Shown one piece after another: positions 24,816 to 50,180 of a stretch of DNA of 64,000 bases. The stretch comes from Dysidea avara (taxonomy: Eukaryota; Porifera; Demospongiae; Dictyoceratida; Dysideidae): NCBI RefSeq assembly GCF_963678975.1, contig NC_089274.1:30815053-30879052 (forward strand). Reading direction: 5' to 3'. The translations under genes were made by a program, and so were the position numbers. The notes under the pieces were generated by a model, which saw only the letters and a list, made by a program, of their open reading frames with translations, ran no database searches and had not been told where the DNA came from. The first letter of the stretch is position 1; the number at the start of each line of letters is the position of its first letter.

Positions 24816-25140
24816 GGATGCAAGGATCACTCCGCCATCCAAATACTATATCTATGCAAAGCATAAAACTTTAGCACTTGGCGCGCGCAGCGCGCCAAGC
24901 GCTAAAGTTTTATGCTTTGCATAGATATAGTATTTGGAAGTTGGAATTAATGAATTCCAATTTGCAAAGTTTATATTTTTAAGTGCTTCCAGCTTTTAAT
25001 GCGATGGTTACGGTGGTTGCTGTGGCTTATAGGCGATAATTGAAGCCATTGTATACAGACCTTACTGTAAGATTTTCTAGGTTTTCTGTGTGGGTATTGT
25101 TTAAAGGAAGCATGCTAAATGCATTATCTACATTACACAG
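24816..25140 (+). repeat. Left terminal inverted repeat of the giant element
   Basis: Matches the reverse complement of 49845-50176. By eye, fewer than about ten differences occur in the first 260 bp. Similarity fades near 25080 but returns in 'aaggaagcatgctaaatg'. It contains the 101-bp palindrome (24838-24938) and a second small palindrome, ggaattaatgaattcc. Confidence 0.88.
24838..24938. repeat. 101-bp near-perfect palindrome in left terminal repeat
   Basis: Arms of about 48 bases run from tccaaatactatatc inward to a GC-only centre (gcgcgcgcagcgcgc) and back. One mismatch is visible (agcActtgg against ccaagCgct). The centre is far richer in GC than its surroundings. Such a structure could extrude as a hairpin or bind element proteins. 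Confidence 0.9.
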
Positions 25141-25656
25141 CTACAAGATACAGGCTTTGAGCTGCAGCACTAGCTCCTGCTAAACGTCGAACTATCCTAA
25201 TAGAACAGTCAGTACAATTATTCATAAAAATGAAGTCATTGTGATTAATGATTTGGCTATAGCTATAACCACAAAATAATATGTTTGGAAGCATGATCAT
25301 GAAGGCTTGCAATTGCAAGATGTGAAGACAGAGACTAGTCATCTAATCAGCGCTACATTGCTTGCAGTAGCCCAACACTTGCAGCTTCCTGTCAGGATAA
25401 CTATGCAATTTAAGCGAGGTGGTTTTCAGTGTACATGTAGGACTGTTCAATTTATTGGACCATGTCTTCTCACTGACCAAAGATATATACTGCTGCTCCT
25501 GTGTCAAGTTCCATCACTAGGTGATTGCCATTCAGTTATTAAACAGGCACTTTGTAGCTTTCAGGAACTGTTGATGAGACTGAATGTACGTGGATTATGT
25601 CGGCAGTGGAATCTTCATCTGAAGGCTCAGTGTTCAGCTGTTGGAGGTCATCATTG

Positions 25657-25821
25657 TTAATGTGATCCACTCCATCCATTGCATTTGCCAGACTTTGTTT
25701 CTGAGGACTCTTTCTTATGACTGTTGTGATTCTGCTGTGTCCTCCTCTTTCCAGGAGCTTTGCTTCTGCCAGCTTTAGCAATGTGGTCTGTGCGAAAGCG
25801 CTTGCAATTGTTGCAAACCAA
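25657..25821 (-). pseudogene. Candidate last exon with CxxC motif
   Basis: Read on the minus strand after a possible acceptor (tttag/ttggtttgc), 54 codons run to a stop. They begin LVCNNCKRFRTDHIAKAG and continue with a basic, hydrophilic tail (GKRRTQQNH..HKKESSETKSGK). The C-x2-C followed by H looks zinc-binding. I do not recognise a family. A second frame on the same strand (to 25539) continues with an acidic stretch rich in D, E and S, so a frameshift may separate two parts of one old reading frame. No upstream exon was found. The region just inside the left terminal repeat is where an element gene could end. Confidence 0.25.
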
Positions 25822-26366
25822 CTAAACTACTCCTCGCCATTTGTTACATTTTAAGTTAACGAACAAGATGTATGAATAGATAGTTAACACAGAGCCATAA
25901 CATGTACAAATTCTAAATATTATATTACAAGCACACATACAGAATATATTGTAAATCAGTTACACACACTTATATCAATAGAAGATTACATCATATGCAA
26001 TTACAACATTTAAATGTATACAATCACATTGACTATCCTAATGTGTGTGTTACTTTAATTTTAGTTGTCAGTGAAAATCTGGTTTTCCATCTTTTAAACC
26101 TAAACATTAAGATCAGAATACGCATAAAACTTGTTTTATGTTGCTTACCCACATACCAGTTGGTCAGATGTAAGGCATAACTACTTGTGGTGTCTCCTCT
26201 TCATTGACCTCTCCTTCTCTTATTGACCCCTGCCTCGCACTTGCCTTTTATTTGTCACTTGACATACTAGCAGAGAGTTGATGACGAATAGCGGGCATGT
26301 CATCCTACAAATGTTTCAGCAGAGGTCAGTAATTTTAAGTCTTAGGCTCAGGTATCACTTTATTAG

Positions 26367-26519
26367 GTTAGGAGAATTCTAAAGGCTGCAGCACATGTTG
26401 CTGTCAGACCTTCAGTGCTGGTCACTGTAAAGCAGTACAATAACAATAACAATAACAATAAGAGTGACTTTGACTGTTCGTCTAGAGCATTTATGATAGC
26501 AAGTGTTTCACAAAATTAA
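26367..26519 (+). pseudogene. Possible decayed exon related to the one at 46967-47153
   Basis: After an acceptor-like tttattag, 50 codons follow, including VAVRPSVLVTVKQ. The exon candidate at 46967-47153 (minus strand) contains FAVRPSVLANVKY in a similar setting (LRRxLKAAAH versus LRYVAKDVEY by rough alignment). Here the frame then runs into an (aataac)n repeat giving seven Asn, and the end does not match, so this is probably a broken copy in inverted orientation. The family is not recognised. Confidence 0.3.
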
Positions 26520-26848
26520 TAGTCACTGTATGTGTTACCTCCTTTTTATCCATACTGCTGTCCTGAGATCGACACCATAACCATGAAAATCTTGTTTGAA
26601 CTTTCTTTGGGCATAAGGTTCTTGTACAAACTAAATGCAGTAAAGACATTACCACAAAGTGCATACTGACACACTGCTATAACATACCGATGGAAGTGGT
26701 TGTTGAAATAGTAAAATAGATTGGTGTAGCCAAATGCCAACTGTAATACCTAACACGAAACAGAATTTTTCATACTGTATGTGGCAAGATGTTATACATA
26801 CATAATATAAAGAACTTCGTGTGGGAGGATCATGCTCATGCACATTAC

Positions 26849-27087
26849 GGGATACTAAGTATTGCAAGATCTAGAGGCTCCCTGCTATCAGACACCCTGC
26901 TATCAGACATCCAGAATGTACCCAGGTATCTTGGGATACTAAGTATTATAGGATCTAGAAGCTTCCCACTATCAGACATCCTGGGATGTACTCAGGTATC
27001 TCGGCATACTTAGTATTGTAGGATCTAGTGGATCCATGCTATGAGACGTCCTGGGATATACTCAGGTATCTCGGGATACTAAGTACA
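26849..27087 (+). repeat. 70-bp minisatellite, about 3.3 copies
   Basis: Units begin gggatactaagtatt at 26849, 26933, 27003 and 27073. The first is 14-15 bases longer because 'accctgctatcagac' is repeated inside it. Confidence 0.85.
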
Positions 27088-28680: not shown

Positions 28681-28767
28681 CATGTGTGTGTTGTGTGTGT
28701 GTAGATATGTGTGCGCATGTGTGTAGTGTGTGTGTGCATGCGTGAATGTAGTGTGGTATGTGTAGTG

Positions 28768-28838
<71 letters not shown>

Positions 28839-28960
28839 TGTGTATGTGTACATGTACATGTATAGTGTGCGTGTGTGTAATATGTGTGTCTTTCTAGTTG
28901 GGTGTGTGTTATGTGCGTGTGATGTGGTGTGGTGTGTGTTGGGTCATGTAAGTGTGTATA
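28681..28960. repeat. Compound (TG)n microsatellite
   Basis: A pure GT run at about 28771-28836 is flanked by imperfect gtgtgt, gcatgtg and tgtag variants. It opens meaningless Cys/Val or His/Thr frames in several registers. Confidence 0.95.
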
Positions 28961-29223
28961 CAGTATGTATGCATGAATTTGTGTCTGTAGTATGTGTACA
29001 TGCAAGTGTCTCTAGATATTAATGTGTACCAAAAATTAAATTTTACAATAGCTCATACACTGTATTCTAACATGTATGTTATATGTTACAATAATATATG
29101 TACCTTTCAATATAGTTGCTGCTTGAAATCATTGTAGCACAGTCAGACATACACATATTTATCAGATAATTTTTTTTACAGCAATGAATCTGTAATAAGG
29201 AGTGACAAAGCCACGTGAAATCC

Positions 29224-30886
29224 TGACACACAATAACACAATAGTGTGATATAGTGAGGGGAAGGGCATCACGACACACAATAACATAGTGAGGGTAGGG
29301 GCATCACAACACACAATATTACAATAGTGTAACATAGTAAGGGGAGGGGCATCACAACACACAGTAATACAGTAGTGTAACATAGTGAGGGTAGGGGCAT
29401 CACAACACATAATAATACAATATTGTAACATAGTGAGGGTAGGGGCATCACGACACACAATAATACAATAGTGTAACATAGTGAGGGTAGGGGCATCACA
29501 ACACACAATAATACAATAGTGTAACATAGTGAGGGTAGGGGCATCACGACACACAATAATACAATAGTGTAACATAGTGAGGGCAGGGGCATCACGACAC
29601 ACAATAATACAATAGTGTAACATAGTGAGGGTAGGGGCATCACGACAGACAATAATACAATGGTGTAACATAGTGAGGGTAGGGGCATCACGACAGACAA
29701 TAATACAATAGAGTAACATAGTGAGGGTAGGGGCATCACAAAACACAATAATACAATAGTGTAACATAGTGAGGGTAGGGGCATCATGACACACAATAAT
29801 ACAATAGTGTAACATAGTGAGGGTAGGGGCATCACGACAGACAATAATACAATGGTGTAACATAGTGAGGGTAGGGGCATCACGACAGACAATAATACAA
29901 TAGAGTAACATAGTGAGGGTAGGGGCATCACAAAACACAATAATACAATAGTGTAACATAGTGAGGGTAGGGGCATCACGACACACAATAATATAATAGT
30001 GTAACATAGTGAGGGTAGGGGCATCACGACAGACAATAATACAATGGTGTAACATAGTGAGGGTAGGGGCATCACGACAGACAATAATACAATAGTGTAA
30101 CATAGTGAGGGTAGGGGCATTACGGCAGACAATAATACAATAGTGTAACATAGTGAGGGGAGGGGCATCACAACACACAAAAATACAATAGACAATAATA
30201 CAATACTGTATCACAACACACAATAATACAATAGTGTAACATAGTGAGGGCAGGGGCATTACGACAGACAATAATACAATAGTGTAACATAGTGAGGGTA
30301 GGGGCATTACGGCAGACAATAATACAATAGTGTAACATAGTGAGGGGAGGGGCATCACAACACACAAAAATACAATAGCGTAACATAGTGAGGGTAGGGG
30401 CATCACAACACAAAATAATACAATAGTGTAACATAGTGAGGGTAGGGGCATTACGACAGACAATAATACAATAGTGTAACATAGTGAGGGTAGGGGCATT
30501 ACGGCAGACAATAATACAATAGTGTAACATAGTGAGGGGAGGGGCATCACAACACACAAAAATACAATAGCGTAACATAGTGAGGGGAGGGGCATCACGA
30601 CGCACAATAATACAATAGCGTAACATAGTGAGGGGAGGGGCATCACGACGCACAATAATACAATAGCGTAACATAGTGAGGGGAGGGGCATCACAACACA
30701 CAATAATACAATAGCGTAACATAGTGAGGGGAGGGGCATCACGACGCACAATAATACAATAGCGTAACATAGTGAGGGGAGGGGCATCACAACACACAAT
30801 AATACAATAGCGTAACATAGTGAGGGGAGGGGCATCACGACGCACAATAATACAATAGCGTAACATAGTAAGGGGAGGGGTATCAT
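29224..30886. repeat. 48-bp minisatellite, about 35 copies
   Basis: The unit is tagtgagggtaggggcatca, then cgacacacaataatacaata, then gtgtaaca; the period is exactly 48 bp. Variants (cgacagac, cggcagac, cgacgcac; gtaggggc, ggaggggc) recur in groups, showing higher-order duplication. One irregular junction lies at 30185-30225. Because 48 is divisible by three and the unit lacks stops in reverse, frames of 588, 308 and 232 codons overlap on the minus strand (16-residue repeat such as MPLPSLCYTIVLLSVV). I do not call these genes: three overlapping frames open at once is expected from the period alone. Confidence 0.93.
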
Positions 30887-31540
30887 AGCTTCACAACTTA
30901 GGGGTGGGAGACATATACACAAAATCATATGGTACTACTGTGTTTTATTGAGTACTTTATGGTTGCATGCATGTCCACTAGGCCAAGCCGTAGAAAATTT
31001 CTATGATGTATTATGTGGCCATTGCAAAGTGGCATTAATTTAGTGCAGTGTGAAACATGTCTAACTTCAGACATGGCTTGTACTCCAGTATGTTGGAGAC
31101 ATCATGTGCCCACAACATTTACCAAATAAACAAATCATTCATCAGGTAAATATACATCAACAATTCACAGTTTGTGCTAACCTGACACATGTATAACACG
31201 ACCACTCAAGTTCTGCCTTGTAATAAACCATAGAACAGTCCTTCGCCATTTCACTAACGCCATTTCAACCATGCATCACGTACACAATTGATCATGTGAT
31301 GCAATAGATATGGTTCAGCATTAATGTGATGTGACCCTCAAGAGTAGTACAAAGGAGCACCAGTGGGCAAATAGCTACCGGAGAGCTACAGGGCTGTAAG
31401 ATTTGGTGTGATTTTTAATTTTTAAGAAATTCTGCTTCTGAAAGGGGGGTTCATCCGAACCCCCCACTGCCTACACCCTTGATCGTAACAAAGTTCTATA
31501 GCTTTAGCAATAAATTAATTTTAGCCTTGACAGGCCTATA
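30887..31540. other. No gene seen
   Basis: AT-rich unique sequence. A G-run/C-run pair (aggggggttc / gaaccccccac) near 31443-31468 forms a short hairpin. Confidence 0.5.
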
Positions 31541-31542
31541 TC

Positions 31543-32411
31543 AAGGTGGCACTCCAATATATCCTGTACTCTAGTGTTCATCCTTGGTCAAGGCGAAAAT
31601 CAAAGTGAAGCTAGAATTTTGCAATCAGCCAAAGATAATTGCATTGCAGAAAATGCATTTGCAAACATTATTTGTTGCACTTAAACATGTCTGTTTTGGT
31701 GACGATCTGATAGCGATATGCAAAAATGCGGACGATATATGGTTTGCCAATAACCAGTCAGATTTTTTATGTAACACTACTAGTTAAAATAGCAACAGCT
31801 GGATCAGCTGAGAGCTGAGAATAATGTTTAGCTGGAAAAAAGTATTGCCAACTAAGGGACTCGAGTGTGGAGGGCTTCCGTGCACTAGGAAATTGAAGTT
31901 GGCTGTCAGTATGCTGTCTGGAAGTAAAGATAAGTTAGTTTTACAATAGGCTAATAGTTTCTATAGCTGCATAAACAGCAGTGTGTAGGTTTTAGCTAGT
32001 TAGATGCACAAACAGCACCTTTTAATCTTACTGCCTAAGGGCATATTTTGTGTATGCACTATTTTAGTAACATGGTCTAGGGGAAGCACCCAGGCCTTCC
32101 TCTTAAGACATTCCACTTTAAATCCGAACCTCCTTCAAAAAAATCCTGGCTACACCCCTGATGATGCTTACAATAAAACCTAACAGTACACATTTAAACA
32201 GTATGCTTAGTAAGGACAAGCTCTCAGCTCAAAAGTTATATACAATTATTGATACATTTAGAACAATTTAAATGTACTTTACAAAAATGTACTAAATTCC
32301 AGAGTCAAGTGCAACTTTTAGTGAAAGTCAGAAGTCAAAGCATATTTTTTGAGGTTGACCACTTCGACTGAGGATGAACATAGGAGTACAGGATATGTTG
32401 GTGTGGCACCC
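31543..32411. mobile_element. Degenerate inverted-repeat element (about 870 bp)
   Basis: The left arm ggtggcactccaatatatcc with tgtactctagtgttcatcc (31545-31583) is matched imperfectly in reverse by 32365-32411 (gatgaacataggagtacagg, then ggtgtggcacc). No target duplication is clear. A 67-codon frame at 31584-31787 is not recognised. Probably an old non-autonomous DNA transposon. Confidence 0.45.
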
Positions 32412-32669
32412 CCTCACTGTTTATATATATATAACTAGGCACTAAGGTGTTTTAGTATTACGAAAACACTCTCCAACAAATCTGTGTGACACTATCTTTC
32501 AAGTTAAGCACAAGAGTGCTGTCTTAAAACATCATATTGCATCTTAGCTACCTGTCACTTGATGCAGTGGTTATTCAAACATTTATAAGTATTCTCCACT
32601 AATTTGCAGTGGTGTTTTAGTAGATCAAAATATCAAGGTAGTGTTACTTGTAATATTGTAGAATGAATA

Positions 32670-33063: not shown

Positions 33064-33927
33064 TATTGTGGCACTGTTCAAGTGTGATGGTACAGCATTT
33101 AATCAAGAAAAAATTTCCTGACCTTATACTTTATGTATAATTGACACATTTAATTCAGCAGGTGGCTACATTAGGCAGGTCACAATTGACATTCTTCATA
33201 AGAATGGTCAGCTAGACATATTCTGGGACCATCACATAGTGTTATGTGCCATCCCTCCCCATTGTTAAATAGACTACCGACTACCCAGCTTGCCAGTGCT
33301 AGGACAGCCGTGTATCATCCCCATACCTTTCGCGTTCCAGTCAAAATGTAGCACGCGCTTCTTTTCTCCCGTTAGCGTACGCAAATACATGTCTTATCAC
33401 CATTCGCCACTATATACTCCTCTGACAGCAACCTCTCGTCCACTGTTGTCACAAAGTACACCCCAATGTAAGCGCCTGGCATGAAAAAAGGGCGGATTGT
33501 CGTTTGATAAAACATTTTAAATCGATCGATGGAACAAAAATAAGATGGCGTTGAGAGAATGCTGAAACTTTACTAAGGAAAAGCCAGTCGTGTTTCATTG
33601 TCAGCTGAAAGTAAATCACCCATAAACACCTCTGCTGTGATAATGATTTGTTTAAACCCAGACTCGAATAGATTTGACGTCACCAGGTGGATCTACCAGC
33701 AACTTCAAGCCAAAATGGTATGTTTTTTTTAAAATTCATAGCCAGGTGTTAACCCCTCGTAATCGCTACACTTTATGCAGAAGTATGGTATATACGGTGT
33801 GCTTTAGGTCCTACACCCAGACCCAAAGGTGTAACCCTCGCGTATGGAAAGTTCCCCAATGGGTGCCTATACTTTGGCCATCGATTTTTTTTAAATAGCT
33901 CATGACCTAGGATTTCCGGTAACGCCC
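33064..33927. other. No gene seen
   Basis: Contains 64- and 74-codon frames (33290-33484 and 33674-33898, +) without recognisable domains. The minus-strand frame ending at 33773 begins in the palindrome arm described next. Confidence 0.45.
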
Positions 33928-33970
33928 TCTGCAGGGTAATTCGATCGGATTCAGTAGCCCTATCAGCCAT
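33773..33970 (-). pseudogene. Inverted partial copy of RING gene exon 1
   Basis: From the mirrored ATG, the first 14 residues match the RING protein's N terminus with one change (E for Q at residue 7). The next residues (RALPEILGHELFKK...) are unrelated and the frame closes after 65 codons. There is no donor at the exon-1 boundary because the copied segment stops before it. It probably arose when the palindrome formed and is unlikely to make a functional protein, though the duplicated promoter may fire leftward. Confidence 0.5.
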
Positions 33971-34518
33971 ATGGTTAAGCAAATGCAGTTTATCTGATGC
34001 CTGTCACAGCACGTAGGCTATTTATACCTTGTGTGCAGTAGCTAATAGACCTCTACTAGACCTCAAACCATACTTTCAAATACAATACACATTATGCTCC
34101 TTCTTTGTTCAACCTGTAACATTCTTTGTTAGTTACTGGATTTGACACTTAAGTATGCTTAGCTATATATTCCGGCACAGTATAGAAACTTGTGGTTAGT
34201 GGGTACTAGAAGAAAGAACTAAACTGGCAAGCAGCCATATAGTTCTTAATTACCTAGCTAAACCTCTATGTCAGAGTAGCTAGCTAACTACGTGTCAAAT
34301 CTAGTATCTAATAAAGAATGCTACAGGTCGAACAAAGAAGGAGCATAATGTGTATTGTATTTGAAAGTATGGTTTGAGGTCTAGTAGAGGTAGCTAGTAG
34401 CTACTGCACACAAGGTATAAATAGCCTACGTGCTGTGACAGGCATCAGATAAACTGCATTTGCGTAACCATATGGCTGATAGGGCTACTCAATCCGATCG
34501 AATTACCCTGCAGAAGGG
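33928..34518. repeat. Large palindrome spanning the RING gene's 5' end
   Basis: The left arm 33928-34165 and right arm about 34283-34518 are near-identical reverse complements around a spacer of about 118 bp. The right arm includes the upstream region, start codon and first 14 codons of the RING-type gene. The left arm holds a mirror copy with its own ATG at 33970 (minus) reading MADRATESDRITLQ before it diverges. The arms differ at scattered bases and small indels (for example tagctaatagacctc versus its mirror with an extra tagctag). Confidence 0.88.
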
Positions 34519-34582
34519 AGAACAGCAAGCTGATGTGTTCATGCATCAAGTGACTACTGAAAATCTCCGCCGCTTGTTTCAG
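34472..34582 (+). CDS. RING gene, exon 1 (too short to stand alone)
   Basis: 37 codons, MADRATQSDRITLQKGEQQ..., ending LRRLFQ before GTTAGC. The start was chosen because the ATG is the first in frame, is preserved in the mirrored copy, and exon 2 joins in phase 0. Confidence 0.7.
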
Positions 34583-35854
34583 GTTAGCTATAGCTAGCTA
34601 ACAGAGGGACGTGGATCTACCTTGCAGGATTGCTATGGCTAGCTATATCATAGCTATACGTACAGTGTATAATGGTGTTTTTTATTTTTTATATATTTTT
34701 TTTGTTTTAAACTAGCTATAGCTAAGTACTTCATAGATTGCATTTTTTTCCTTTCACATACAGGTTGACCCTTCAGTCGTCTTCTTGAAGGACAGTATTG
34801 ACGAATCGATGTATTTTCCAAGTGAGAATGGGACCTTTAACCTGTCTCAAGAAGGTGTGATGCCCTTTTCAACTCTACTGGTGGAAGGCAGGAACTTGAC
34901 AGAGGGCCGTACCAGGACCCCAACTGGGACCCCATCTTCCCATGTCCAGTCTTTAAACAGCAGCAACAGCAGTATACCCGGGACCAATCCACCTGTACAT
35001 GTACTTGCATCGTCCACTCCCTACCAGGGGTCATCTAACTCTATGTTCAGATCGGTGGTGGCAAGGCGTCCTCCACCATCTTCCACTGTGAAACTGGTGC
35101 AAGCCAAGCTAACAAAGAACGGCAGGACAATAAGGTTTCATGATAAAGCCCAGATATTTGTGAATATCACAGAATCTACGGCTCACACTGAGTTTATATT
35201 GGCTGCAATACAACAAAAGTGGGGATCGGATCACGTTATTGTGACAAATAATGGCCTAAAAATTGAAAATTCATCTGCCACTCAAGGTAGCTAGCTGTAT
35301 GTAAAAGCAATGTGCATATACTGTACACAGTAACAATACAGGACTTGTGGTTTACCGTATGTATAACTTTATCATTTTCAGGGTTAGCTTTCTGGAAGGC
35401 ACCCAGAAGGAAATTATATGCCATGACACAGAGGGATCTCAATATGATTCAAGATGATGCTGACGATGACATTGACGAAGAGCTGGCACCTCGTGCTGCC
35501 AAAAGGATCAAAAATGAACTGAGGGATATGAGGGATGAGTTTAGAGGCTTAAGATCAATCATTGAAAGGACATTGCCAATCTCATTAAGGGACAAATTGA
35601 AAGATATATTAAAATGTTGCATATGTCAGGTGGTCCCGATAAGGCCACCGATGGTTATATCAATGTGCTGCAAGTCAATCGTAGGATGTGAACAATGTGT
35701 TCAGCAGTTGCTGGCAACCAGTCATTCAGCAAATTGCCCGCTGTGCAGGGACACGGACTTTGAGACTGTCAAAGTTCTCGGTCTTGATGGCTTGATTACT
35801 GCTGTAAGCAGTTACTTAGAAGATGAGACTGACACTGCTGGAGATGAGAGTTGA
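34472..35854 (+). CDS. RING-type zinc-binding protein, 3 exons, 368 aa
   Basis: Exons 34472-34582, 34764-35286 and 35382-35854 join in phase with GT-AG introns of 181 and 95 bp (donors CAG/GTTAGC and AAG/GTAGCT; acceptors CATACAG and TTTTCAG). Residues 1-211 are Ser/Thr/Pro-rich in the middle (about 90-140). Residues 233-275 are charged and likely helical. A RING-like module follows: C290-x2-C293, C307/C308, C314-x2-C317, C330-P-L-C333. The usual His is absent, with Cys in its place. Such modules usually mediate E2 binding and ubiquitin or SUMO transfer, but activity here is only an inference. It lies in the same orientation about 5.5 kb upstream of the integrase gene, within the giant element. 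I recall similar RING proteins near integrase-type genes in fish and cnidarian genomes, but cannot verify that here. An ATTAAA lies at 36034, 180 bp past the stop. Confidence 0.75.
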
Positions 35855-36154
35855 CCAAAGTTAAACTGTATAGCTAGCTAGTAGTTTGTTGTAACCTTCT
35901 TCATTATTATAATTACAGGTATATTTCACTTGAATTAATATTTGTTATTGTAGTCATTGTAGCTATCTAGCTACATTGCTCATATTATTTATTATTTGTA
36001 TTGTAAGTGATCACATGCAATCTTTAAATTGACATTAAATTTAAAACAAACAAGTTGAAAGTCAAGGAGAGGATGGGGATGGGGTTTAGAGAAACTAAAA
36101 TAAAACTAGATGATATCTGGCTGTATATGACTGTTGACATGAAAGTGCTGATAA

Positions 36155-36882
36155 GGCCACTACAATGAGATTACTTGTTTCTCATCAACCGCCCGCACCA
36201 AAATTTTCTTTTGCCCATGCGCACTCATTATTGCACAAGATGGCAGCATGGCTTTTTTGAGTGTTGTGGTAGTGGGTTTATCACGTAGAAAAGCACTATT
36301 TCCATGAAAAACTGCAATCCCATTGAGATACAGACACCATTTATGAGTGTTTTTTACTTCTGTGTTGATTAGAGAGCTTTCTGGAGCATCAACGACCACC
36401 AAGGCATCAATAGTGAGTGCTACAGTGTACATTAGACCATACACTAGCATTGGTATCGTGACCTGCATGCCCTATGTGCAGGGCCATCATATCTAAGAGA
36501 CATAGTAGCTTTAGTGTTGCTACTTCTGCCACAAGCTTACACAGCCCCTCCCCCTAATAAGACTGACCAGCCTACATGTGCTAAGACTGCTGCTGTCTGC
36601 TGCTGCATGGTACATGACTCCAAGACTGGTGGAACTTTCGCAAAGGACTTGAATGCTATGTTACTGAAGTTGAAGTTTATGTGCACTTGGAATTTTACCC
36701 TCAGTGTGCACCAGTGCTTGGTGTGCATTCTGCCAATAGCCTAAAAATAAAGGATTATTATACTGGTTTTGTACAAATATGCTATGGCTTGTGCAATAAT
36801 GAGATAATGAGATAACCCGCCCGCCCGCATGTGTTACTCAATGAGAAGTTGATGAGAAACAAGTTATCTCATTGTAGTGGCC
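36155..36882. mobile_element. GGCC-ended inverted-repeat element (728 bp)
   Basis: Ends ggccactacaatgagat and atctcattgtagtggcc, followed inward by acttgtttctcatcaa and its mirror, then cgcccgc motifs at both ends. Flanks are TAA on the left and TAT on the right, close to a 3-bp Harbinger-type duplication. The termini resemble the 358-bp array MITE (ggcca..., cgggcggg), suggesting related elements. Frames at 36160-36468 (-) and 36514-36744 (+) show no transposase motifs. Confidence 0.65.
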
Positions 36883-36975
36883 TATTACAGGTTACGTAGC
36901 AACGCGCATGATCAACCAAGTCTCACGATCACGTGACAAATTCAAAATTATAGCGGTTTTCACGAGTGATCCGGC

Positions 36976-37039: not shown

Positions 37040-37637
37040 GTAAGTGTTCCGTATTCTACAGTATATGCATATACATGCACGCATGTTCCCAAGCTACGTA
37101 GCTAGCTAACCAACCAGGACTGAAGGCTGCAGAGCTCAGTTGCCGTGTCATGTGTATCTATAGCTAGCTAGCTAAGTACAAATGTGAATTTATTTGTCAA
37201 ATCCCCTAGTGTCAAGGGAGAAAGGCTACGTAAAGTAAAAAACAAGTGGAAAAAAAATTTTAGATGGAAGACATTCAAAACAATTAGACCAGACCTCAAA
37301 CAATGGAAGTGACCAGTGCTAATTATAACCAGTGCTACCACATTGGCTTCTAAAATAAATTGCCAGAACAACAACAACAACAACAAAAAACCACTCCTTT
37401 TTCTATTATGCAATCCATGTGGTACATAAATATAACTTCTATTGTTCAACCAACCATTGTACCATTTAACCAGTGTGGTTTTGTTTCATTTGGGATTACC
37501 ATATGTGTGCATCGAACCACTGGACTGAACTATACTATGACCACCCTTCTATTTCCATTCTGCAATCCATGTGGTACATATATATTTTATTTAATTTCGA
37601 TTGTTTAACAATTGCAGTGTGATTGTGCCATGTATCA

Positions 37638-37638
<1 letters not shown>

Positions 37639-37669
<31 letters not shown>

Positions 37670-37719
37670 CAAGTACGGCAAACATGTGGAGAGTGTGTGA
37701 AAAAGGGGGGGGGGGGGGA
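37639..37719 (+). repeat. (TG)n and poly-G in first 929-bp unit
   Basis: A TG run at about 37639-37666 and a run of more than ten G near 37705-37718. The second unit has equivalents at about 38563-38600 and 38636-38648. Confidence 0.9.
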
Positions 37720-38561
37720 TCATGACTAGCACAAGTAAAGTACCGGTGGAGGAGAGGATATATAGTTTGTGCAGTACATCAAAAGGTGCATACAACCACT
37801 TTATGGCTATAATTATATGATCGTTTTACAATCATATCGCTTCATACGTCCGAACAATTTCAAATCTAGCCAGGCTTGTAGTCAGTGTAGCTATACGGCC
37901 AGACCATATGACAATTATATGATATTTTTATTAATTAATTTAAAAATAATTTTCCTTTGTCTTCCCCAGCATATCATCTGCTATATAGTTATTAGCCAGT
38001 TGATTTATTTTTGTTTATTCATTTTTTTGTTTAAAAAAAAATTATCGATTTGACAGTTATGGTACAGCTACAAGCTAACAATACATGCAGTTGATATATA
38101 GATGGCTAGATTGTGGTGTAGATGAAATGTACAAGTCGTGCATGTTGTCTCAGTCGAAATTAAAGCAGGCAGGATACTTTTTTTTTTTTAGATGGAAGAC
38201 ATGCAAAACAATTAGACCAAGCCTCAAACAATGGAAGTGACCAGTGCTAATTATAACCATTGCTACCACATTGGCTTCTAAATTAAACAGCCAGACACAC
38301 ACAAAAAAAAACCACTCCTTTTTCTATTATGCAATCCATGTGGTACATAAATATAACTTCTATTGTTCAACCAACCATTGTACCATTTAACCAGTGTGGT
38401 TTTGTTTCATTTGGGATTACCATATGTGTGCATCGAACCACTGGACTGAACTATACTATGACCACCCTTCTATTTCCATTCTGCAATCCATGTGGTACAT
38501 ATATATTTTATTTAATTTCGATTGTTTAACAATTGCAGTGTGATTGTGCCATGTATCATGT

Positions 38562-38602
<41 letters not shown>

Positions 38603-39486
38603 CAAGTACGGCAAACATGTGGAGAGTGTGTGAAAAGGGGGGGGGGGGAATCATGACTAGCACAAGTAAAGTACCGGTGGAGGAGAGGATATATAGTTTG
38701 TGCAGTGCATCAAAAGGTGCATACAACCACTTTATGGCTATAATTATATGATTGTTTTACAATCATATCGCTTCATACGTCCAAACAATTTCAAATCTAG
38801 CCAGGCTTGTAGTCAGTGTAGCTATACAGCCAGACCATATGACAATTATATGATACTTTTATTAATTAATTTAAAAATAATTTTCCTTTGTCTTCCCCAG
38901 CATATCGTCTGCTATATAGTTATTAGCCAGTTGATTTATTTTTGTTTATTCATTTTTTTGTTTAAAAAAAAATTATCGATTTGACAGTTATGGTACAGCT
39001 ACAAGCTAACAATACATGCAGTTGATATATAGATGGCTAGATTGTGGTGTAGATGAAATGTACAAGTCGTGCATGTTGTCTCAGTCGAAATTAAAGCAGG
39101 CAGGATACTTTTTTTTTTAGATGGAAGACATGCAAAACAATTAGACCAAGCCTCAAACAATGGAAGTGACCAGTGCTAATTATAACCATTGCTACCACAT
39201 TGGCTTCTAAATTAAACAGCCAGACACACACACAAAAAAACCACTCCTTTTTCTATTATGCAATCCATGTGGTACATAAATATAACTTCTATTGTTCAAC
39301 CAACCATTGTACCATTTAACCAGTGTGGTTTTGTTTCATTTGGGATTACCATATGTGTGCATCGAACCACTGGACTGAACTATACTATGACCACCCTTCT
39401 ATTTCCATTCTGCAATCCATGTGGTACATATATATTTTATTTAATTTCGATTGTTTAACAATTGCAGTGTGATTGTGCCATGTATC

Positions 39487-39549
39487 ATGTGTGTGTGTGT
39501 GTGTGTGTGTGCGTGCGTGCGTGTGTGTGTATGTGTGTGTGTGTGTGTG

Positions 39550-39615
<66 letters not shown>
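39487..39615 (+). repeat. Expanded (TG)n microsatellite
   Basis: About 128 bp of TG with a few gcgtgcg, tatg and catg interruptions, much longer than in the other two units. It marks the break point of the third copy. Confidence 0.95.
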
Positions 39616-39616
<1 letters not shown>

Positions 39617-40005
39617 CATGATCATGTAGCTGCTAGACAAATAATAGGGGCACATGACACCTCACTAGCCAATATGACTATAACCCTGGGCATTGGGGAG
39701 GAGGCATTGGTAGTTTATGTAACATGACCCAGGCACTCAGTATTCCCAGAGTGCCTTTGCACTGATACTCTATAGCACCATGTAACTATAGATTCCCTGT
39801 AGACATAATTAAACATTACATTATATTTGTTTTATTCTTCTAGATGAATTAACAATATTACTTTATTTTTTTTATAGATAGCTAATTAACCATAAGATTA
39901 CAACCTGCTCATGGATTGCTTTACATTGTATCAAGAGAAAATTAAAGTGTAGCTGTACAGAAGGAGACCAAAGTGAGTAGTAGTGATTAGCATACGGGCT
40001 GTGTT
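39616..40005. other. No gene seen
   Basis: AT-rich unique sequence between the 929-bp repeats and the next MITE. Confidence 0.5.
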
Positions 40006-40008
40006 TTA

Positions 40009-40430: not shown

Positions 40431-40480
40431 AGTTTCACTGTAGCTACATAAGAAGCTAATTGAAGTGTATTTTTTGTTGC

Positions 40481-40715: not shown

Positions 40716-40922
40716 CAGTGCATGATTACGTGATTCAGTACTGATGTAGCAAGTATTGAAATGCTCAGTGCAGGCCTCCAGTAGCAATATAATTATACTA
40801 ACTGCAATTAGCTACTTAGCTCTATTGTTATGTGAAGATTAGATCTTATCTAGCTAGCTATCATTGCTTGTTAATTAATCTCAACTAGAGGGGATGCGCT
40901 AATTATAATGTACAGATAGTTA

Positions 40923-41270
40923 GGCCAATGAAACTTGATTACTAGTTTCTCGCTCAGATTTTTGAAATTTTGATGCGGGCGGGCGGTTTTTATTCATTAT
41001 TCATTATTGCCTACTCAGGGTGTGCTGAGATCAGAAACCTTCATATTGTCACTAAAGTGTTGTAAAATTGCATGGATAACACTTCTCATTTGAATAAAAA
41101 GAATATTAGTACTCCTGGCATGCCTATAATAAAGTGACTTCTTTATTAGAGTAAAAGTGACTGCTCTATTAGAGTATTTCGATCTAAATTGCCAATAATG
41201 AAATTCCATGCGGGTGCTAGTGAAGGGATGTGGGCGGTGACGCGAAGCTGCTAATCAAGTTTCATTGGCC
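40923..41270. mobile_element. Harbinger-like MITE, copy outside the array
   Basis: Same family as the copies at 11097, 17738, 56948 and 60365 (ggccaatgaaacttgatta ... ttcattggcc; TTA at 40920-40922 and 41271-41273), but with a different middle. This independent insertion confirms the element's ends. It lies only about 130 bp upstream of the integrase start codon. Confidence 0.75.
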
Positions 41271-41397
41271 TTAGTTAGCCTCAGGGCCAGCCGCTTACAC
41301 TCATTGTATAGACGCGAGAGGCGCAGTTCAACAATAGCTAATTGGTTGGCACCATGCAAATAAGTAGCTACAGGTATATAGCCTCGAATATATAGCC

Positions 41398-43851
41398 ATG
41401 GCTGGGATACGCTTGCTGGATGAGTTGGAAGAGTTCATAAGGGAGAAAATAGAGAAGGAGCGATGGACCCACAAACGTATGAGTCTTCACCTGCAATACA
41501 AATATCCTAGCAGGAAAGGACTGAGTGTTCGCTCATTGGAGAGGTTTGTATACATATAGCTAGCTAAGTAGCTTGGTACATGAACCTACTGTATATAGCT
41601 ACAAACAGCTGCAAGCCCGTTGCAGAGTCAGAACTGTATTATATATATAGTTACTTACAGTTGCAAAAAGAGCTCACTAGTGCTGCATACGTAGGTAATA
41701 GCTATGGGTATATAACTATAGATAATATAACTAGCTATATAAAGGGTCCGTGCATTCAGTTTTCAACAATAATTAATTGCATCATGTTTGATTGAGACGG
41801 GCTAACAAGCTAGATTACCGCGTAAGTAGCTAGTAATTTTTTTTTACCTACTTGTCCACATGTGTTTGTGTAGCTTGTATGTATACATGCATACATGCTC
41901 TACAGTGAATATCACCAGTCTAGCCCCACATTGAAGCGCAAACATTAGGTACTATATTGTATACCAGACCAGACGATCACCATTATTATGATCATGAATA
42001 GTCTAACTAATACATGCACTGATTCCAATTATTACTGGCTAAGTAATTTAAGACTGAGAATCATATATGTGTAGTAATTCACTACCAGTTTATTTAATAG
42101 TATAGCTACATTGCTATATAATGCATGGCAAAATTTTAGAGACCCAAATGTAGGCTTCATTCAATGTACACTGTAGCTATATATAGGGTTTGCATATATG
42201 TTTATGAATAATCAGCATACAAAAGTAATATAGTCCTTAGATTGGTTCATCCTATATATAGGTTCTGCCGTGAAAGGAACATTCACAAAACAAGCCGGCT
42301 GACAAAACCTGAGTTAGATGAGGTCGTAGCCGCTGCTGTCAGTGAGGTACAACATGATATAACCATTTATTTAAAACCATACTATGTGTTATATACATAT
42401 AGGTGGGTCCTGTGTATGGACGCAGAACATTTACAGGGGTATTGGCATCAAGGGGAATCAGAACAGGAGAAAAGAGAGTTGGCGAATCATTGAGATATGT
42501 CTCACCTGTGTACTGCCGTGCCCGTACAAACTCCACTGCCAGGATGACAAATCCTACAACATACAGGGCAGATTATTTTGGTCACAAACTACACATCGAC
42601 CAAAATGAAAAAAATGTTATGTTTGGTGTGACCCACATATGTGCAGTGGATGGCTTTAGCCGGAAAATTGTGGCATTTAGCACTATGCCTATTAAAAACA
42701 ACAGTGTGATTTATGATACAGTGTACAGGTACTTCATTACTTGTAGCAACTACACTAGCACTGCATTACTACCCACACATTCATCCATAACGTTAACAGT
42801 GATTATTAAAATTCTATGAAGTATTGTTAGAATCACATTTCTTTTAATTATTAGCATTTGAATTGTTTAGGCAAACCATATGCCAGTATGGTATGTGGGA
42901 TCAGATCAGGGTTGACCATGGAAGGGAGTGGTATCTTATGTTGTACATCCAAGAACACCTGGCAGGATATAGACGAAACCCTTCTGGACCACCTCACCTG
43001 CAGACATCCTCTACTCAAGTGAGATTGTATTTGTCACATTATCATGATGTAACAAGAATAACCTATAGTGGACTACTGATGTTTAGCAGCAGCTATTGTA
43101 GTTGGATAAGCAGGGTAAACCCCCAAATTAAAAAAAAACAACAATATATTAATGCTGACTAGATGACATTCTAAAACAATGATATAAGAGTGGGACACAC
43201 ATACAATAACTGTTGTTTCATTTCATGTGATGTTCATTCTGATTTGCTTTGGTGTCTTGTAATAGAATCATGTGATCGAAAGGATATGGGTAGAGGTCAA
43301 CGGAAGGGTCAACTACCCCATAAAGGCCGCTCTAATAGAAATGCAAGAAAATGGCGATTTCAACCTGGAAGACGATCACATTAAACATTGCGTCTCCTGG
43401 TACACTTTACACGTCAGCCAAGTTGGGACTACAATGTTTGTGACAGCCTGGAACGAGCATCGCATATCAGGTATATTTCACTATAGATAGCCAGCTACTT
43501 TATGAAATTTTTATCACCGTTACTTTAGGTACAAACAAAGGCATCCCGAATGTGATGATGGCACGAAATAATCAGACCAAGCAAATTGATAACACTCTGG
43601 TTCCAACAGCAGATGAAGCTGTTAGAATGTACGAAGAAAACGGAGGACATATAACTATATTCAATGAGTTTGGACAAGACCCTTTAAGAGGAAGACAAGA
43701 GTTAATAACCATTAGAAAGGAACGATTTGCTGAGCAATGGCCAAGCTTTGGCAATATTTTTCATTCACTTGTAAATGGTGACAATACAATGTTCCATGAT
43801 GGACTGCTATGTTTTATTAATATAAGCATGCAACTAACAGCACAGCTGTGA
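41398..43851 (+). CDS. DDE integrase/transposase, 6 exons, 410 aa
   Basis: Exons 41398-41543, 42262-42346, 42403-42728, 42871-43018, 43266-43470 and 43529-43851 join in phase, all with GT-AG introns. The start has a good context (gccATGG). Residues 1-77 look like a helical DNA-binding region (LLDELEEFIREKIEKERW, LSVRSLERFCRERNIHKTSR). Residues 82-115 (YGRRTF..LASRGIRTGEKRVGESLRYVSP) resemble the helix-turn-helix before the catalytic domain of IS3-type transposases. The integrase core follows: D143 (HKLHIDQNEK), D201 (IRVDHGRE) and E240 (HVIERIWVEVN), spacing DD38E, with WNEHRISG near residue 300. This fold cuts and joins DNA ends, so it is the likely transposase of the surrounding element. 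Integrase-core proteins of this type are common in fish and invertebrate genomes. A possible AATAAA is at 44116. Confidence 0.82.
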
Positions 43852-45535
43852 GAGAGTTTTACATGCAATTGTATTTTATTGTTAATTTTATTTACTTCAT
43901 TTCTATTTATCTGTTGCTAAGATATATCATGTTATGGTTATTGACACTTGTATTTTGCATGTTTGATGCTTGCATAAATGGTTCCATCTCTGTATAGTAG
44001 GCTAGTTATCAGTTTTTTTTTGCATAAAAAAAACACTTGAAGTGATATACCAATATTCTGTTGTAGGGATTAAACCTCAAAATAATGTTGGTGAAGAGCA
44101 TAACAAAGTTTCCACAATAAATCCTATTACTTCTGGGTTCCCAACTATACAACATTATGGTGTATAATTTCATTTATATAATGAGAAGTTACTGTACAAG
44201 ACTTAGAATTGAGCATAAAAGTACAAATTTAATTTAATTATCGCTTAAACTGTTCTTATAAATGGGAGGGATGTTTATGATACAGTATTGCCGCTTGATT
44301 TGGTAACTGGCTATTCCACGTAAGAATGGTTGAAAGAGAGAATCAATATTAATATTTGTATCAGTCTATAGCCTGGTAGCTGGCTAAATGAATCTGCATG
44401 AATGGCGTCGAGAGATGTTATTATGGTTTAATGGTAAATTGTGCTGACTATATGCAAGTATATGGATGATTCTGTACAACATTATCAGTTTCATCTTATC
44501 TCTTCTTCAATATAAAATGGGCCAAATGCAATCTAGCTGTTGTAAGATGCTTGTAACACACTCGTATATCTAGTAGCAGTTAACAGTAAACCTAGCTGAT
44601 CTTCTCTGGATATTATTTAGATAGTCTGGTGACCAGACAGTGCTGGTGTACTCTAAAGTCTGTTGTGGGAGTGGGTGGAGGGTGTGTACTGATTTTAAGC
44701 AATATGAGATGAGCTATTGTCACAGTTACATTTAAATGTGTTGTGAATTGATTGACGGTTGATAGCTAACTGCTAAAGCATAACCCCTGCTGTGAACTCA
44801 CCAACATTGACAAAATAACAAATTGTATATACAGTGTAGAACGCGACAAAATAAATATTGTATTGGAATGATTTTATTGGAGTGGTTGGGGGCATATTAA
44901 ATAAAGGTATAGGCACATATATATGGGATATTTTGTTATAGTGTGTGCCCCCCTTTTTTTATTACATGAACATCAGACCATCCATCTGTGCATGTCTGTC
45001 ACTCTGTTATGTAATGTGTTTATCTTCACTATTAAGGGGGAGGCTATAGCTAGTGATTTGAAATGACAAATCCTTGGATATCAAACTCTAGTTTAGATCT
45101 AGAAGAGCTAAAGTGAAAACTACCTTCGTGAATGTGAGAATATGTATTTACGCATAATATTGCCTATACACTATAGGGAATATTGTTGCTAATGGGGTAT
45201 GCAAAACTTGTCCAACATTAACGTACAGTAGTATGTTAAAGCAGCATGCCATGACTATACATGGATTTTAAAGAACAGTATACACAGGTATATAATTAAT
45301 TTTTTTTTGGAAAGTTTGGGGTTTTAACAGCTTGACCACAAACCACACCAACATAACATACATAAAGTGGAATGCAGAGGGTAATGATGATACACTCAAT
45401 AACACATGCAGCTAATGGATTTGCCAGTAAAGTGTGGGAATTAATTCAGCTAGGGTGACACGAGTGATGTGATTCATAATCTGATCAAAAGCCTCCATGC
45501 AATTCCTCACTGCATGCAGTCTGCAGTTACAAGGA
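43852..45535. other. 3' flank of integrase gene; no further gene seen
   Basis: AT-rich, with AATAAA at 44116-44121 as a possible polyadenylation signal and a mirrored tttttttt-gcat-aaaaaaaa near 44013-44033. No domain-bearing frame and no strong repeat. Confidence 0.5.
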
Positions 45536-46966
45536 CGTATTAAGACACTTGGTACTTGGTAGCTGCCCGCTGTACAGTGCACTGCTATAGCAGAGTTCTA
45601 TGATTCCTCCTGAAGCAGTGACAAATTGGTAGCTCCACAAAAGTTGCGATGTCTACTCTTCCTCCACAAACTGCGACCACAAGGACGTATTAAGACACAC
45701 TCACACACACACACACACACATGCACATACTGATTGTTACCGAACGAATGTCACAGACATTAACATCTAGTGATAATTGTATTAAAAGTGGCATCATCTG
45801 TAAGAATGTTGTATTAGAGAGTATATACCTGTATTTACCTTAATGGAGTATACGTATATGTGGAGTACCAAACTAACGTATGTATATAACGTATAGTGAA
45901 CATAACGTATAGTGAACATAACGTATAGTGAAATACTATAATTGTGATGGTGACAACCCACAGCCTTAATAGTAATGCCTGCAGGAGTGATCTTAATTGA
46001 AACTGTACGTGTGCTTTATAATGACATGAATATGGTTATGCAGGGCTGTGTGATTAATACATACATATGTACAATACAATAGTGATATTGACGTTATTCA
46101 CACCTTTAAAAACTTTAGATAAATATTGACCCCCTGTACATGTGATTTAATAAATTTGACGTCCGCCATATATGGGGTTTTAAAGAGGGAATCATGAACT
46201 GCCAACATCCAACTGCAAGGTGTACATGCATAATTCAAAGACGATTGCTGGTCCAATATCACAACAATGTCATTTTATTAAGTTCTGTGATTACAAGTGT
46301 ATGAACGACATTACCCTGCTTGCAGCATCATGTAAGAACGACACAGAGCATATCAATGAATCATGTGAAAGTACATACAATATGAATACGTTTACAAATG
46401 TGTGTGCATCTATGATTTTCATTGTTCATGTTCTAATTACAGAGTTCCTACAACTAGTATTGCAAATGTTGAGTGTAGTTTGGTTACATTGTGCATACTA
46501 TTACATGGAGCTTGTAAAGTTTAACACGGTTTGTATATACATGGTGGGCCGGAAAAAAAATTACATAAAAGTGCTGATATCTACATTCTTGTAAACATTA
46601 AATGGCATTCTAAATTATCACCTGTTGTTAGAACTATTTAGGAATCAATGCTTCTTATCAAACTGCATGCATGGTTCCATTCATACTTAAACAACACACC
46701 CCAGTGTGTTTCTATGGACTATACGCGTCTGCCTTTAATTCTGGTGTACTATATATATGGAAGCATATAATGGACGGTAATGATTTACCATCTGTCATTA
46801 CCTTACAATTGCATCTAATTGCAGAAGATACAGAGTACTTCAGACAAATTAATTCTCTGGGTGCATGGTGTGGAGATTTGGTTGGTCTTTTTACACCCCT
46901 TCTGAGATATTTGTCCCTTTTCACTTAAAGTGATTTAGCTCTAAGATTTTCACTTAGGCGCCTGGG

Positions 46967-47153
46967 CTATGGGTAAATACTTCGTACAGGCTCTACCTTC
47001 TGTGTACTCCCTCCAGAAAACAAAATTTGTTTGTTAGTATACTTTACATTGGCCAGCACTGAAGGTCTGACTGCAAAATATTCTACATCCTTAGCTACAT
47101 AACGTAACCTAAACTGTACTTGGGACACTGAACTACTTTTAGACCGAAAATAA
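46967..47153 (-). CDS. Candidate terminal exon, copy 1
   Basis: On the minus strand, a strong acceptor (tgttttcccag) precedes 62 codons beginning YFRSKSSSVSQVQFRLRYVA, containing FAVRPSVLANVKYTNKQILF, and ending RSIYP-stop. Composition is more protein-like than the surrounding frames, and a similar segment occurs at 26367-26519. I could not find the preceding exon and do not recognise the family. Confidence 0.35.
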
Positions 47154-48691
47154 CTGGGAAAACAATGGACGATTGGTATTATAAAAATAACAATAGAACA
47201 CTGTGCACTTGGGGCCCACTACTCAGGGGATTAGGTTATAAAAAAAGACACTTGGTACTCGTATTAAGACACTTGGTACTTGGTAGCTGTCCGCTGTACA
47301 GTGCACTGCTATAGCAGAGTTCTATGATTCCTCCTGAAGCAGTGACAAATTGGTAGCTCCACAAAAGTTGCGATGTCTACTCTTCCTCCACAAACTGCGA
47401 CCACAAGGACGTATTAAGACACACTCACACACACACACACACACACATGCACATACTGATTGTTACCGAACGAATGTCACAGAAATTAACATCTAGTGAT
47501 AATTGTATTAAAAGTGGCATCATCTGTAAGAATGTTGTATTAGAGAGTATATACCTGTATTTACCTTAATGGAGTATACGTATATGTGGAGTACCAAACT
47601 AACGTATGTATATAACGTATAGTGAACATAACGTATAGTGAACATAACGTATAGTGAAATACTATAATTGTGATGGTGACAACCCACAGCCTTAATAGTA
47701 ATGCCTGCAGGAGTGATCTTAATTGAAACTGTACGTGTGCTTTATAATGACATGAATATGGTTATGCAGGGCTGTGTGATTAATACATACATATGTACAA
47801 TACAATAGTGATATTGACGTTATTCACACCTTTAAAAACTTTAGATAAATATTGACCCCCTGTACATGTGATTTAATAAATTTGACGTCCGCCATATATG
47901 GGGTTTTAAGGAGGGAATCATGAACTGCCAACATCCAACTGCAAGGTGTACATGCATAATTCAAAGACGATTGCTGGTCCAATATCACAACAATGTCATT
48001 TTATTAAGTTCTGTGATTACAAGTGTATGAACGACATTACCCTGCTTGCAGCATCATGTAAGAACGACACAGAGCATATCAATGAATCATGTGAAAGTAC
48101 ATACAATATGAATACGTTTACAAATGTGTGTGCATCTATGATTTTCATTGTTCATGTTCTAATTACAGAGTTCCTACAACTAGTATTGCAAATGTTGAGT
48201 GTAGTTTGGTTACATTGTGCATACTATTACATGGAGCTTGTAAAGTTTAACACGGTTTGTATATACATGGTGGGCCGGAAAAAAATTACATAAAAGTGCT
48301 GATATCTACATTCTTGTAAACATTAAATGGCATTCTAAATTATCACCTGTTGTTAGAACTATTTAGGAATCAATGCTTCTTATCAAACTGCATGCATGGT
48401 TCCATTCATACTTAAACAACACACCCCAGTGTGTTTCTATGGACTATACGCGTCTGCCTTTAATTCTGGTGTACTATATATATGGAAGCATATAATGGAC
48501 GGTAATGATTTACCATCTGTCATTACCTTACAATTGCATCTAATTGCAGAAGATACAGAGTACTTCAGACAAATTAATTCTCTGGGTGCATGGTGTGGAG
48601 ATTTGGTTGGTTTTTTTACACCCCTTCTGAGATATTTGTCCCTTTTCACTTAAAGTGATTTAGCTCTAAGATTTTCACTTAGGCGCCTGGG

Positions 48692-48879
48692 CTATGGGTA
48701 AATACTTCGTACAGGCTCAACCTTCTGTGTACTCCCTCCAGAAAACAAAATTTGTTTGTTAGTATACTTTACATTGGCCAGCACTGAAGGTCTGACTGCA
48801 AAATATTCTACATCCTTAGCTACATAACGTAACCTAAACTGTACTTGGGACACTGAACTACTTTTAGACCGAAAATAAC
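48692..48879 (-). CDS. Candidate terminal exon, copy 2
   Basis: Duplicate of 46967-47153, with the same acceptor and stop. One base differs in the region I compared (gctcaacc versus gctctacc). An upstream exon would have to lie right of 48900, where I see none. Confidence 0.33.
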
Positions 48880-48972
48880 TGGGAAAACAATGGACGATTG
48901 GTATTATAAAAATAACAATAGAACACTGTGCACTTGGGACCCACTACTCAGGGGATTAGGTTATAAAAAAAG

Positions 48973-49844
48973 AATAATTATAGAAATGCATTTAATCTTT
49001 GCATCTTTATTAGAATTTAGTAGGCCTAACAGGCTTCGAATCCATATCTCATCATCTCAAAAGTAGCCGTGACCCATACTTATACAGAACTTTTTAAACT
49101 TTCTTTATATAGCTATATGGTGAGTGTTCTATTAGGATACTATGCATGCTTGACTGTTGCAATTGGGTAAATAGGGTGACTGATTGTCAGTGTATTTCAA
49201 GTGGACCTTACACAACTGATCTGTACATCATTACATGGAGTGGGGTTTCTCTGTGTCTCTTTATTCTTACCAGTCACCAATGCCAAGGAGATGAGGTCAA
49301 CTTGTGATTGTGCTGCGTAAGCATTAATTGATTATCAAAAGATGTGGTCATCTTGCTCCTAGCTGGTTGATACAAGATTCACAAGTTCTGAGGCATACTG
49401 CGTGTGCATACATAATGTAGTGGCAATCTTAATATTGAACACAGTAAGGCTTTGTTACCGAAGCTAAATATTCAGCATTATAAATATATATATATGCAGG
49501 GCTGGAAGGTATATCCCACAGGCAGAATACGGTGACCATATACTGTGTTGTTTAAATTCTAGCCTTGTTGTGATCATATAGAGGCTTGTAGATAAAAATT
49601 TTGTAAGATGCTTCTATGGTGTAGTTTTAAGGGGATGTCCATTTGGAAGGGGGGTGGTGGGGTGTTACTTTAGGGAGTCACTACTATACAGTACACTGAG
49701 ACCTCATTTAGTGACCACTTCTGCAATTAGATCATGCAAGTTATAGTTAAATCATTAAACTCAGTGACTGGTCATTTACGAATATACCGACTGTTCTATT
49801 AGGGTAGTTCGATCTTTAGCAAGGGCTACCTGTATAATATAGAT
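48973..49844. other. No gene seen, fragment of MITE-like sequence
   Basis: Mostly unique AT-rich sequence. Near 49790-49815, 'ctgttctattagggtagttcgatct' in part resembles the 'ctctattagagtatttcgatct' motif inside the Harbinger-like MITEs and may be a remnant. Confidence 0.4.
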
Positions 49845-50176
49845 ATATAATGTAGATAATACATTTAGCATGCTTCCTTAAAGCAATAGCCACAAGGAAA
49901 CCATATCGTAGAGAGTAAATCTTACAGTAATGTCTGTATACAATGGCTTCAATTATCGCCTATAAGCCACAGCAACCACCGTAACCATCGCATTAAAAGC
50001 TGGAAGCACTTAAAAATATAAACTTTGCAAATTGGAATTCATTAATTCCAACTTCCAAGTACTATATCTATGCAAAGCATAAAACTTTAGCGCTTGGCGC
50101 GCGCAGCGCGCCAAGCGCTAAAGTTTTATGCTTTGCATAGATATAGTATTTGGATGGCGGAAAGATCCCTGCATCC
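49845..50176 (-). repeat. Right terminal inverted repeat of the giant element
   Basis: Inverted counterpart of 24816-25140, ending tgcatcc just before the ACCT duplication. The inner limit is approximate. Confidence 0.88.
50054..50154. repeat. 101-bp palindrome in right terminal repeat
   Basis: Same palindrome as at 24838. The agcgcttgg/ccaagcgct pairing is restored here, and one outer position differs (tccaagtac against gtatttgga). The asymmetric GC centre reads the same on the + strand as in the left copy, although the terminal repeats are inverted. Confidence 0.9.
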
Positions 50177-50180
50177 ACCT

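Follow-up and report, generated by a model that had tools for sequence, protein, structure and literature searches.

We describe a giant DNA transposon in the genome of the sponge Dysidea avara. The window analysed is a 64,000-nucleotide stretch of contig NC_089274.1, and its positions 24817–50175 very probably represent a recent insertion of one copy of a giant transposon family, driven by an integrase, with a 6-bp stagger and with recognition of its ends through terminal hairpins. The element is a discrete unit with defined termini, and near-identical copies of it were found in its own genome (G000; 550.8 Mb, 108 contigs). Dispersed copies, inverted ends, target duplications and empty sites, the marks of a DNA transposon, are all present, together with a gene pair, a common hairpin plan and hairpin tips in both orientations. 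An earlier reading of the window, made from sequence only, had proposed a giant transposon of a poorly described class lying in a satellite. Two findings bear this out: the genome has 21 complete copies, each with a 6-bp duplication, and there are other large families related to them.

The boundaries of the element were set by comparing termini across the copies of its family, here called family A. The left end has the sequence GATGCAAGG, and the inverted termini that had been proposed match each other in two stretches, one of 270 nt at 96% and one of 77 nt at 82%. From the window alone the target duplication can be parsed as 4 bp (ACCT), as it had been in the sequence-only reading, because the junction G and C are complementary. 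The parse is settled by the other copies, which show GATGCA..TGCATC termini and 6-bp duplications in 21/21 cases; ACCT is thereby ruled out, the duplication is CACCTG and the element boundary shifts by one base. The paralogous uninterrupted sites were confirmed: the joined 400 + 400-bp flanks align to window positions 419–1217 at 99.1% and to 54993–55795 at 99.0%, and to further repeat units at 89–95%. Since the joined flanks match uninterrupted repeat units over ∼800 bp, the insertion struck a single unit of a satellite array. This array (window 1–24815 and 51125–63167) alternates many times between blocks of a 51-bp minisatellite and ∼1-kb spacers.

A 263-bp piece of the left end served as the query for a genome search, and 40 full-length end matches were scored among 101 candidates; there were also shorter matches in which the palindrome aligned with itself. 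Pairing of the ends gave 21 complete family A copies, including the one in the window, on 10 contigs, and each has an exact 6-bp target duplication. The copies measure 16,488–35,786 bp, with a median of 26,531 bp. Thirty-eight of the 40 scored ends fall in verified pairs, and the two unpaired ones lie at C9:18.8 Mb and C5:8.77 Mb; on the opposite side of the C9 element, homology ends 487 bp before the terminus. Therefore, the ends are not solo miniature inverted-repeat transposable elements (MITEs), an outcome that the sequence-only reading had named as one that would refute it. The inverted pairs with the same two genes that it had suggested looking for exist elsewhere in the genome, with 6-bp and not 4-bp duplications. 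Across 27 duplications of family A and of the diverged family B (see below), the target site shows a weak preference for YWNNWR, with Y/R at the outer positions in 42/54 cases and A/T at the adjacent positions in 49/54, where the A/T test assumed 60% A+T.

Seven other copies, including the two with unpaired ends, were compared in part with the window interior and were mostly 98.0–99.9% identical to it, while the end segments of four compared stretches showed 94.7–97.5% identity. The remaining copies were read inside only at gene matches and, for 12 of them, at an internal repeat. The presence of many almost identical copies suggests recent movement. A 16.5-kb copy (L049/L050) aligns to the window element lengthwise, most blocks at 97–99.6% and repeat-rich blocks lower, and lacks the equivalent of window 41953–49765, integrase included; it is a deletion of the same backbone. 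A 731-bp block (window 31062–31792) lies inverted in this copy. Among the matches listed, the integrase is found in 20/21 family A copies, the RING gene in 18/21 and both in 17/21, several being partial or broken. Two complete copies lie ∼1 kb apart (L044–L046, C1:46.39–46.45 Mb), spanning 61 kb jointly, neither with a RING match.

The integrase and RING genes of the sequence-only reading are both present, contain introns and are open once spliced by eye at GT/AG sites. The predicted integrase has six exons and 410 codons. Its residues 140–317 match Pfam rva_4 (E 1.9e-18), and a candidate DDE triad, D143/D201/E240, was assigned by eye within this match. The N-terminal part gave a weak match to Pfam HTH_21 (E 0.042, under the cut-off), and another weak match was to the NCBI IS3 model NF033516, which scored 21 bits (E 1.2e-4) where the cut-off is 160. 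No zinc-binding integrase N-domain was matched in Pfam at E 1, and comparison with solved structures returned 0 matches. No close integrase relatives were found in the viral contigs scanned, and a scan of bacterial and archaeal genomes gave 8 pattern matches, of which 0 were confirmed.

The RING gene product has a C-terminal RING finger, with a Pfam score under the cut-off but consistent, and its nearest solved relative is RBBP6 (E 7.9e-4). Only these two small genes were recognised in the element interior among the frames scanned. Ten further frames of 90–590 codons were compared with Pfam; repeat frames, one duplicate and some frames of similar length were omitted, and shorter exons were not included. 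No match was obtained except one at chance level (E 0.025). A 590-codon frame at 29165–30934 was rejected as a gene, because the stretch is made of a 48-bp minisatellite whose repeats leave several frames open. The interior also holds a ∼1.7-kb tandem duplication and a ∼950-bp block in about three copies (window 45500–48900 and ∼37258–39622). By eye, two MITE-like inserts with inverted ends lie at 36148–36892 and 40930–41276, the former absent from the 16.5-kb copy.

Both ends of the window element carry near-perfect palindromes with 56–57-nt arms and a 3-nt loop. Folded as single-stranded DNA, they gave z scores of −17.05 and −15.54, with 0/200 shuffles as good. The hairpin pattern had 89 + 86 matches in the genome, versus 0 + 0 for the reversed control. 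The 5-bp centre of the family A hairpins, read from the terminus, is either CTGCG or CGCAG, in a ratio of 18:18 among the 36 readable ends; of the 42 ends, five were dropped as having no readable centre and one as having a 3-base centre. When the orientation of the centre was placed on a tree built from the adjoining 560 bp, 10 changes were counted compared to a shuffled mean of 10.36 (159/300 shuffles had as few or fewer). As the number of changes is close to the shuffled expectation, no signal of ancestry was detected in the orientation; the tree has weak resolution, with 4 starred branches of 29, so that this test loses force. In one set of seven ends identical over the 560 bp, six have one centre orientation and one has the other. 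An inverted repeat inside the same elements served as a control, and its spacer was found in a single orientation in 14/14 copies (the window element, the 16.5-kb copy and 12 others); at 137 nt it is an imperfect match to a short-loop hairpin. These data suggest that a hairpin or cruciform physically forms and reopens often on the scale of copy age.

Two diverged families, B and D, follow the same plan, with integrase and RING sequence and subterminal hairpins. Family B has six end pairs; judged by the positions of their ends, five measure 27.8–33.7 kb and the sixth 12.2 kb. In each of the six, the target duplication is exactly 6 bp long and the termini are GAT..ATC (GATAGA/GATGAG), and the family B integrases are 61–78% identical to that of the window in the exons compared. 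When 18 kb of one B copy were compared with the window element, the common sequence was limited to the exons of the two genes, the terminal hairpin and an 84-bp repeat. This repeat (window 46933–47016) was rejected as a family feature because it is dispersed: it gave 567 first-look genome candidates, and of the 40 scored, 16 were shorter matches, 89–92% alike, outside family A copies. Among the matches listed, the main exons of the integrase and of the RING gene are found in the B pairs at C1:29.0, C2:39.8 and C6:4.97. One family B copy (L064/L065, C5:8.61–8.64 Mb) is flanked by what by eye seems to be the hairpin end of a related element, which would make them nested giants.

Family D is more distant, with identities per aligned piece of 39–56% for the integrase and 28–41% for RING. 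Its termini are GGTCC, and its hairpins have a different stem sequence; the hairpin is kept as a structure while its stem sequence changes between families. In the C6 copy the matching ends lie ∼30.3 kb apart, and the duplication there is 6 bp, AATAAG. A pair of D-like hairpins on C7 was rejected as an element, having no common duplication and appearing by eye to be two ends of the same type. Over all matches listed, with one position per locus and some loci possibly counted twice, a RING match lies within 25 kb of 36/69 integrase loci, and 35/67 RING loci have an integrase match. By sequence comparison, the RING gene appears to be retained beside the integrase through deep divergence.

Several observations weigh against a family of autonomous giants with a fixed gene pair and hairpin ends. 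In the same matches, 33/69 integrase loci and 32/67 RING loci have no partner within 25 kb; the integrase–RING pair is therefore not universal, and it is common for a locus to be solo, decayed or of another family. Two RING-less integrase loci were fetched, and no recognisable element ends were found. Three of the 21 family A copies have no RING match and one has no integrase, and the other B pairs hold pieces only among the matches listed (C5:8.6 and C10, one exon piece per gene; C5:30.7, a RING piece). Thus, some copies in both families would need help from other copies. For the duplication of family D, a reading of 8 bp is possible as well. The D copies on C6 and C5 are alike over ∼18 kb and diverge ∼12 kb before the C6 right end, and because the C5 match stops short of that end, the full length of family D rests on one copy. 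Five of the 42 family A ends have no readable hairpin centre, in copies with intact duplications, and in at least two of them (L040, L041) the centre is deleted. This may reflect later decay of the palindrome, or the hairpin may be dispensable. Finally, IS3-type enzymes have D,D35E catalytic spacing, and the 38 residues separating the candidate D201 and E240 exceed this.

IS3EU and GingerRoot elements encode an integrase-like DDE transposase related to bacterial IS3 with no HHCC domain, as described in the available text of two sources (PMC10045372, PMC12730594). According to these, IS3EU produces 6-bp duplications, its complete families always have TA..TA termini and those of rust fungi carry accessory genes; GingerRoot termini are mostly TA..TA and sometimes TG..CA (PMC10045372). 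The 6-bp duplications of families A and B (21/21 and 6/6) and the IS3-related integrase place the element near this group. In contrast to these descriptions, the termini here are GATGCA..TGCATC (A), GAT..ATC (B) and GGTCC (D), and the family is 16–36 kb, with long terminal hairpins and a RING partner. Judged by published descriptions and profile scores, the giant family is apparently an integrase-type DNA transposon near IS3EU and outside its terminal signature. The earlier statement that the element matches no giant family that could be named thus loses its main reason, the 4-bp duplication, even though the termini are not those of IS3EU/GingerRoot. Ginger1 and Ginger2 are likewise integrase-encoding DNA transposons with terminal inverted repeats, of 40–270 bp, with 4-bp duplications (5 bp for TDD), and Ginger1 has TGT termini and a size of 2.6–7 kb (PMC2836005, available text). 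The 6-bp duplications in 21/21 copies, the GAT termini and the length of 16–36 kb differ from this, and identity with Ginger1/Ginger2 was rejected on the duplication. The available text of a 2019 review of giant eukaryotic elements covers Teratorn, Polinton, Helitrons, Terminons and Burro, likewise mobile units >20 kb but with other mechanisms; the term IS3EU was not found in it (PMC6431247). Literature searches at the level of abstracts, with Repbase outside their coverage, found no description of such a giant hairpin-ended family.

Could the size be accidental? An ordinary IS3EU/GingerRoot master copy might have been inflated by nested insertions and tandem repeats and then copied, and the minisatellites, duplicated blocks and MITE-like inserts of the interior, the recognition of two small genes alone and the 6-bp duplications all agree with this, as does the ∼12 kb of the sole complete-looking D copy that is not common to its relative. 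However, five B pairs and the D copy are all close to 30 kb (27.8–33.7 and 30.3 kb; one B pair is 12.2 kb) despite integrase identities of only 61–78% and 39–56%, and none of the families has TA..TA termini. We regard such inflation as unlikely, though a serious contender, and giant size looks like a property of the lineage. That two unrelated solo end-repeats, or the halves of an assembly chimera, face each other by chance is hardly credible. The two unpaired ends among 40 would fit it, but it is refuted by the matching duplications of 21 pairs spread over 10 contigs, the 38 paired ends and interiors common to the copies wherever compared, which also answers the earlier concern that the ends might not be joined by this interior.

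Polinton/Maverick elements are large and have an integrase and long inverted ends, and the giant family resembles them in these respects. They also share a 6-bp duplication (PMC10045372, available text). The elements could accordingly be seen as a Polinton/Maverick or other integrated DNA virus stripped of most genes, with the flipping hairpins as relics of viral replication. We consider this very improbable. The integrase is of a different type (rva_4/IS3-like), with no close relatives in the viral contigs scanned, ten of the longer frames, when compared with Pfam, matched neither capsid nor ATPase nor protease, and a genome-wide search for PolB (PF03175) matched none of the elements, so that identity with Polinton was rejected; the same search found nothing in 14 control genomes. 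Its sole reported matches are at two places on C14 (387553 and 1963154), one in a 2041-aa open frame and possibly Polinton-like. Parvovirus ends flip and flop, and the tips described here resemble them. Perfect short-loop palindromes are, however, generally unstable, and the centres may flip by cruciform formation or replication slippage unrelated to transposition. The ends without a readable centre fit this explanation, and the long spacer of the control repeat is not an ideal comparison; the random tip state among ends identical or nearly so over 560 bp is compatible with either view, and we judge the chances to be about even. Tip reopening may be tied to transposition.

In the transposon family that we favour, the element-encoded integrase would be the mover: it would recognise both ends and join them to the target across a 6-bp stagger, yielding 6-bp duplications with the weak palindromic preference YWNNWR. 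The conserved hairpin-forming palindrome would serve as the site of end recognition, binding and synapsis, and the RING protein would most likely be an accessory factor of E3-ligase type for host or transposase control. A bolder proposal, which we think rather doubtful, is a superfamily whose hairpin ends are extruded, cut and refilled during movement, by analogy with parvoviruses, and in which an IS3-like integrase moves up to 36 kb with two conserved genes. The features of the window element are listed in Table 1.

Table 1. Positions of the features of the giant element in the window
Feature	Position	Strand	Remarks
Left target-site duplication CACCTG	24811..24816	no strand	6-bp duplications in 21/21 copies
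Left terminal inverted repeat	24817..25154	+	begins GATGCA
Left terminal hairpin	24838..24938	no strand	near-perfect palindrome, centre CGCAG
48-bp minisatellite within element	29282..30885	no strand	33.5 units
Internal inverted duplication	33925..34517	no strand	surrounds RING gene start; right arm holds probable start codon; spacer orientation the same in 14/14 copies
RING gene, probable first exon	34472..34582	+	open frame, conserved in family B; start codon inferred
RING gene, exon 2	34764..35286	+	spliced frame, genome matches
RING gene, exon 3 with RING finger	35382..35854	+	spliced frame, Pfam, structure match
Integrase exon 1	41398..41543	+	spliced frame; partly conserved in family B
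Integrase exon 2	42262..42346	+	spliced frame
Integrase exon 3	42403..42728	+	holds first candidate catalytic Asp
Integrase exon 4	42871..43018	+	holds second candidate catalytic Asp
Integrase exon 5	43266..43470	+	holds candidate catalytic Glu
Integrase exon 6 and stop	43529..43851	+	spliced frame, genome matches
Right terminal inverted repeat	49829..50175	-	terminates TGCATC
Right terminal hairpin	50054..50154	no strand	centre CTGCG reading from terminus
Right target-site duplication CACCTG	50176..50181	no strand

Natural DNA transposition is reportedly less efficient above ∼6 kb of cargo, although artificial constructs have carried 100–200 kb (PMC6431247, available text). The lineage described here, with integrases down to 39–56% identity, stays mostly at 20–36 kb with two small recognised genes in common. 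Its hairpins, with tips in two orientations, offer a testable handle on how long elements are assembled and moved, and the giant family would add an IS3-type member to the few known giant eukaryotic transposons.

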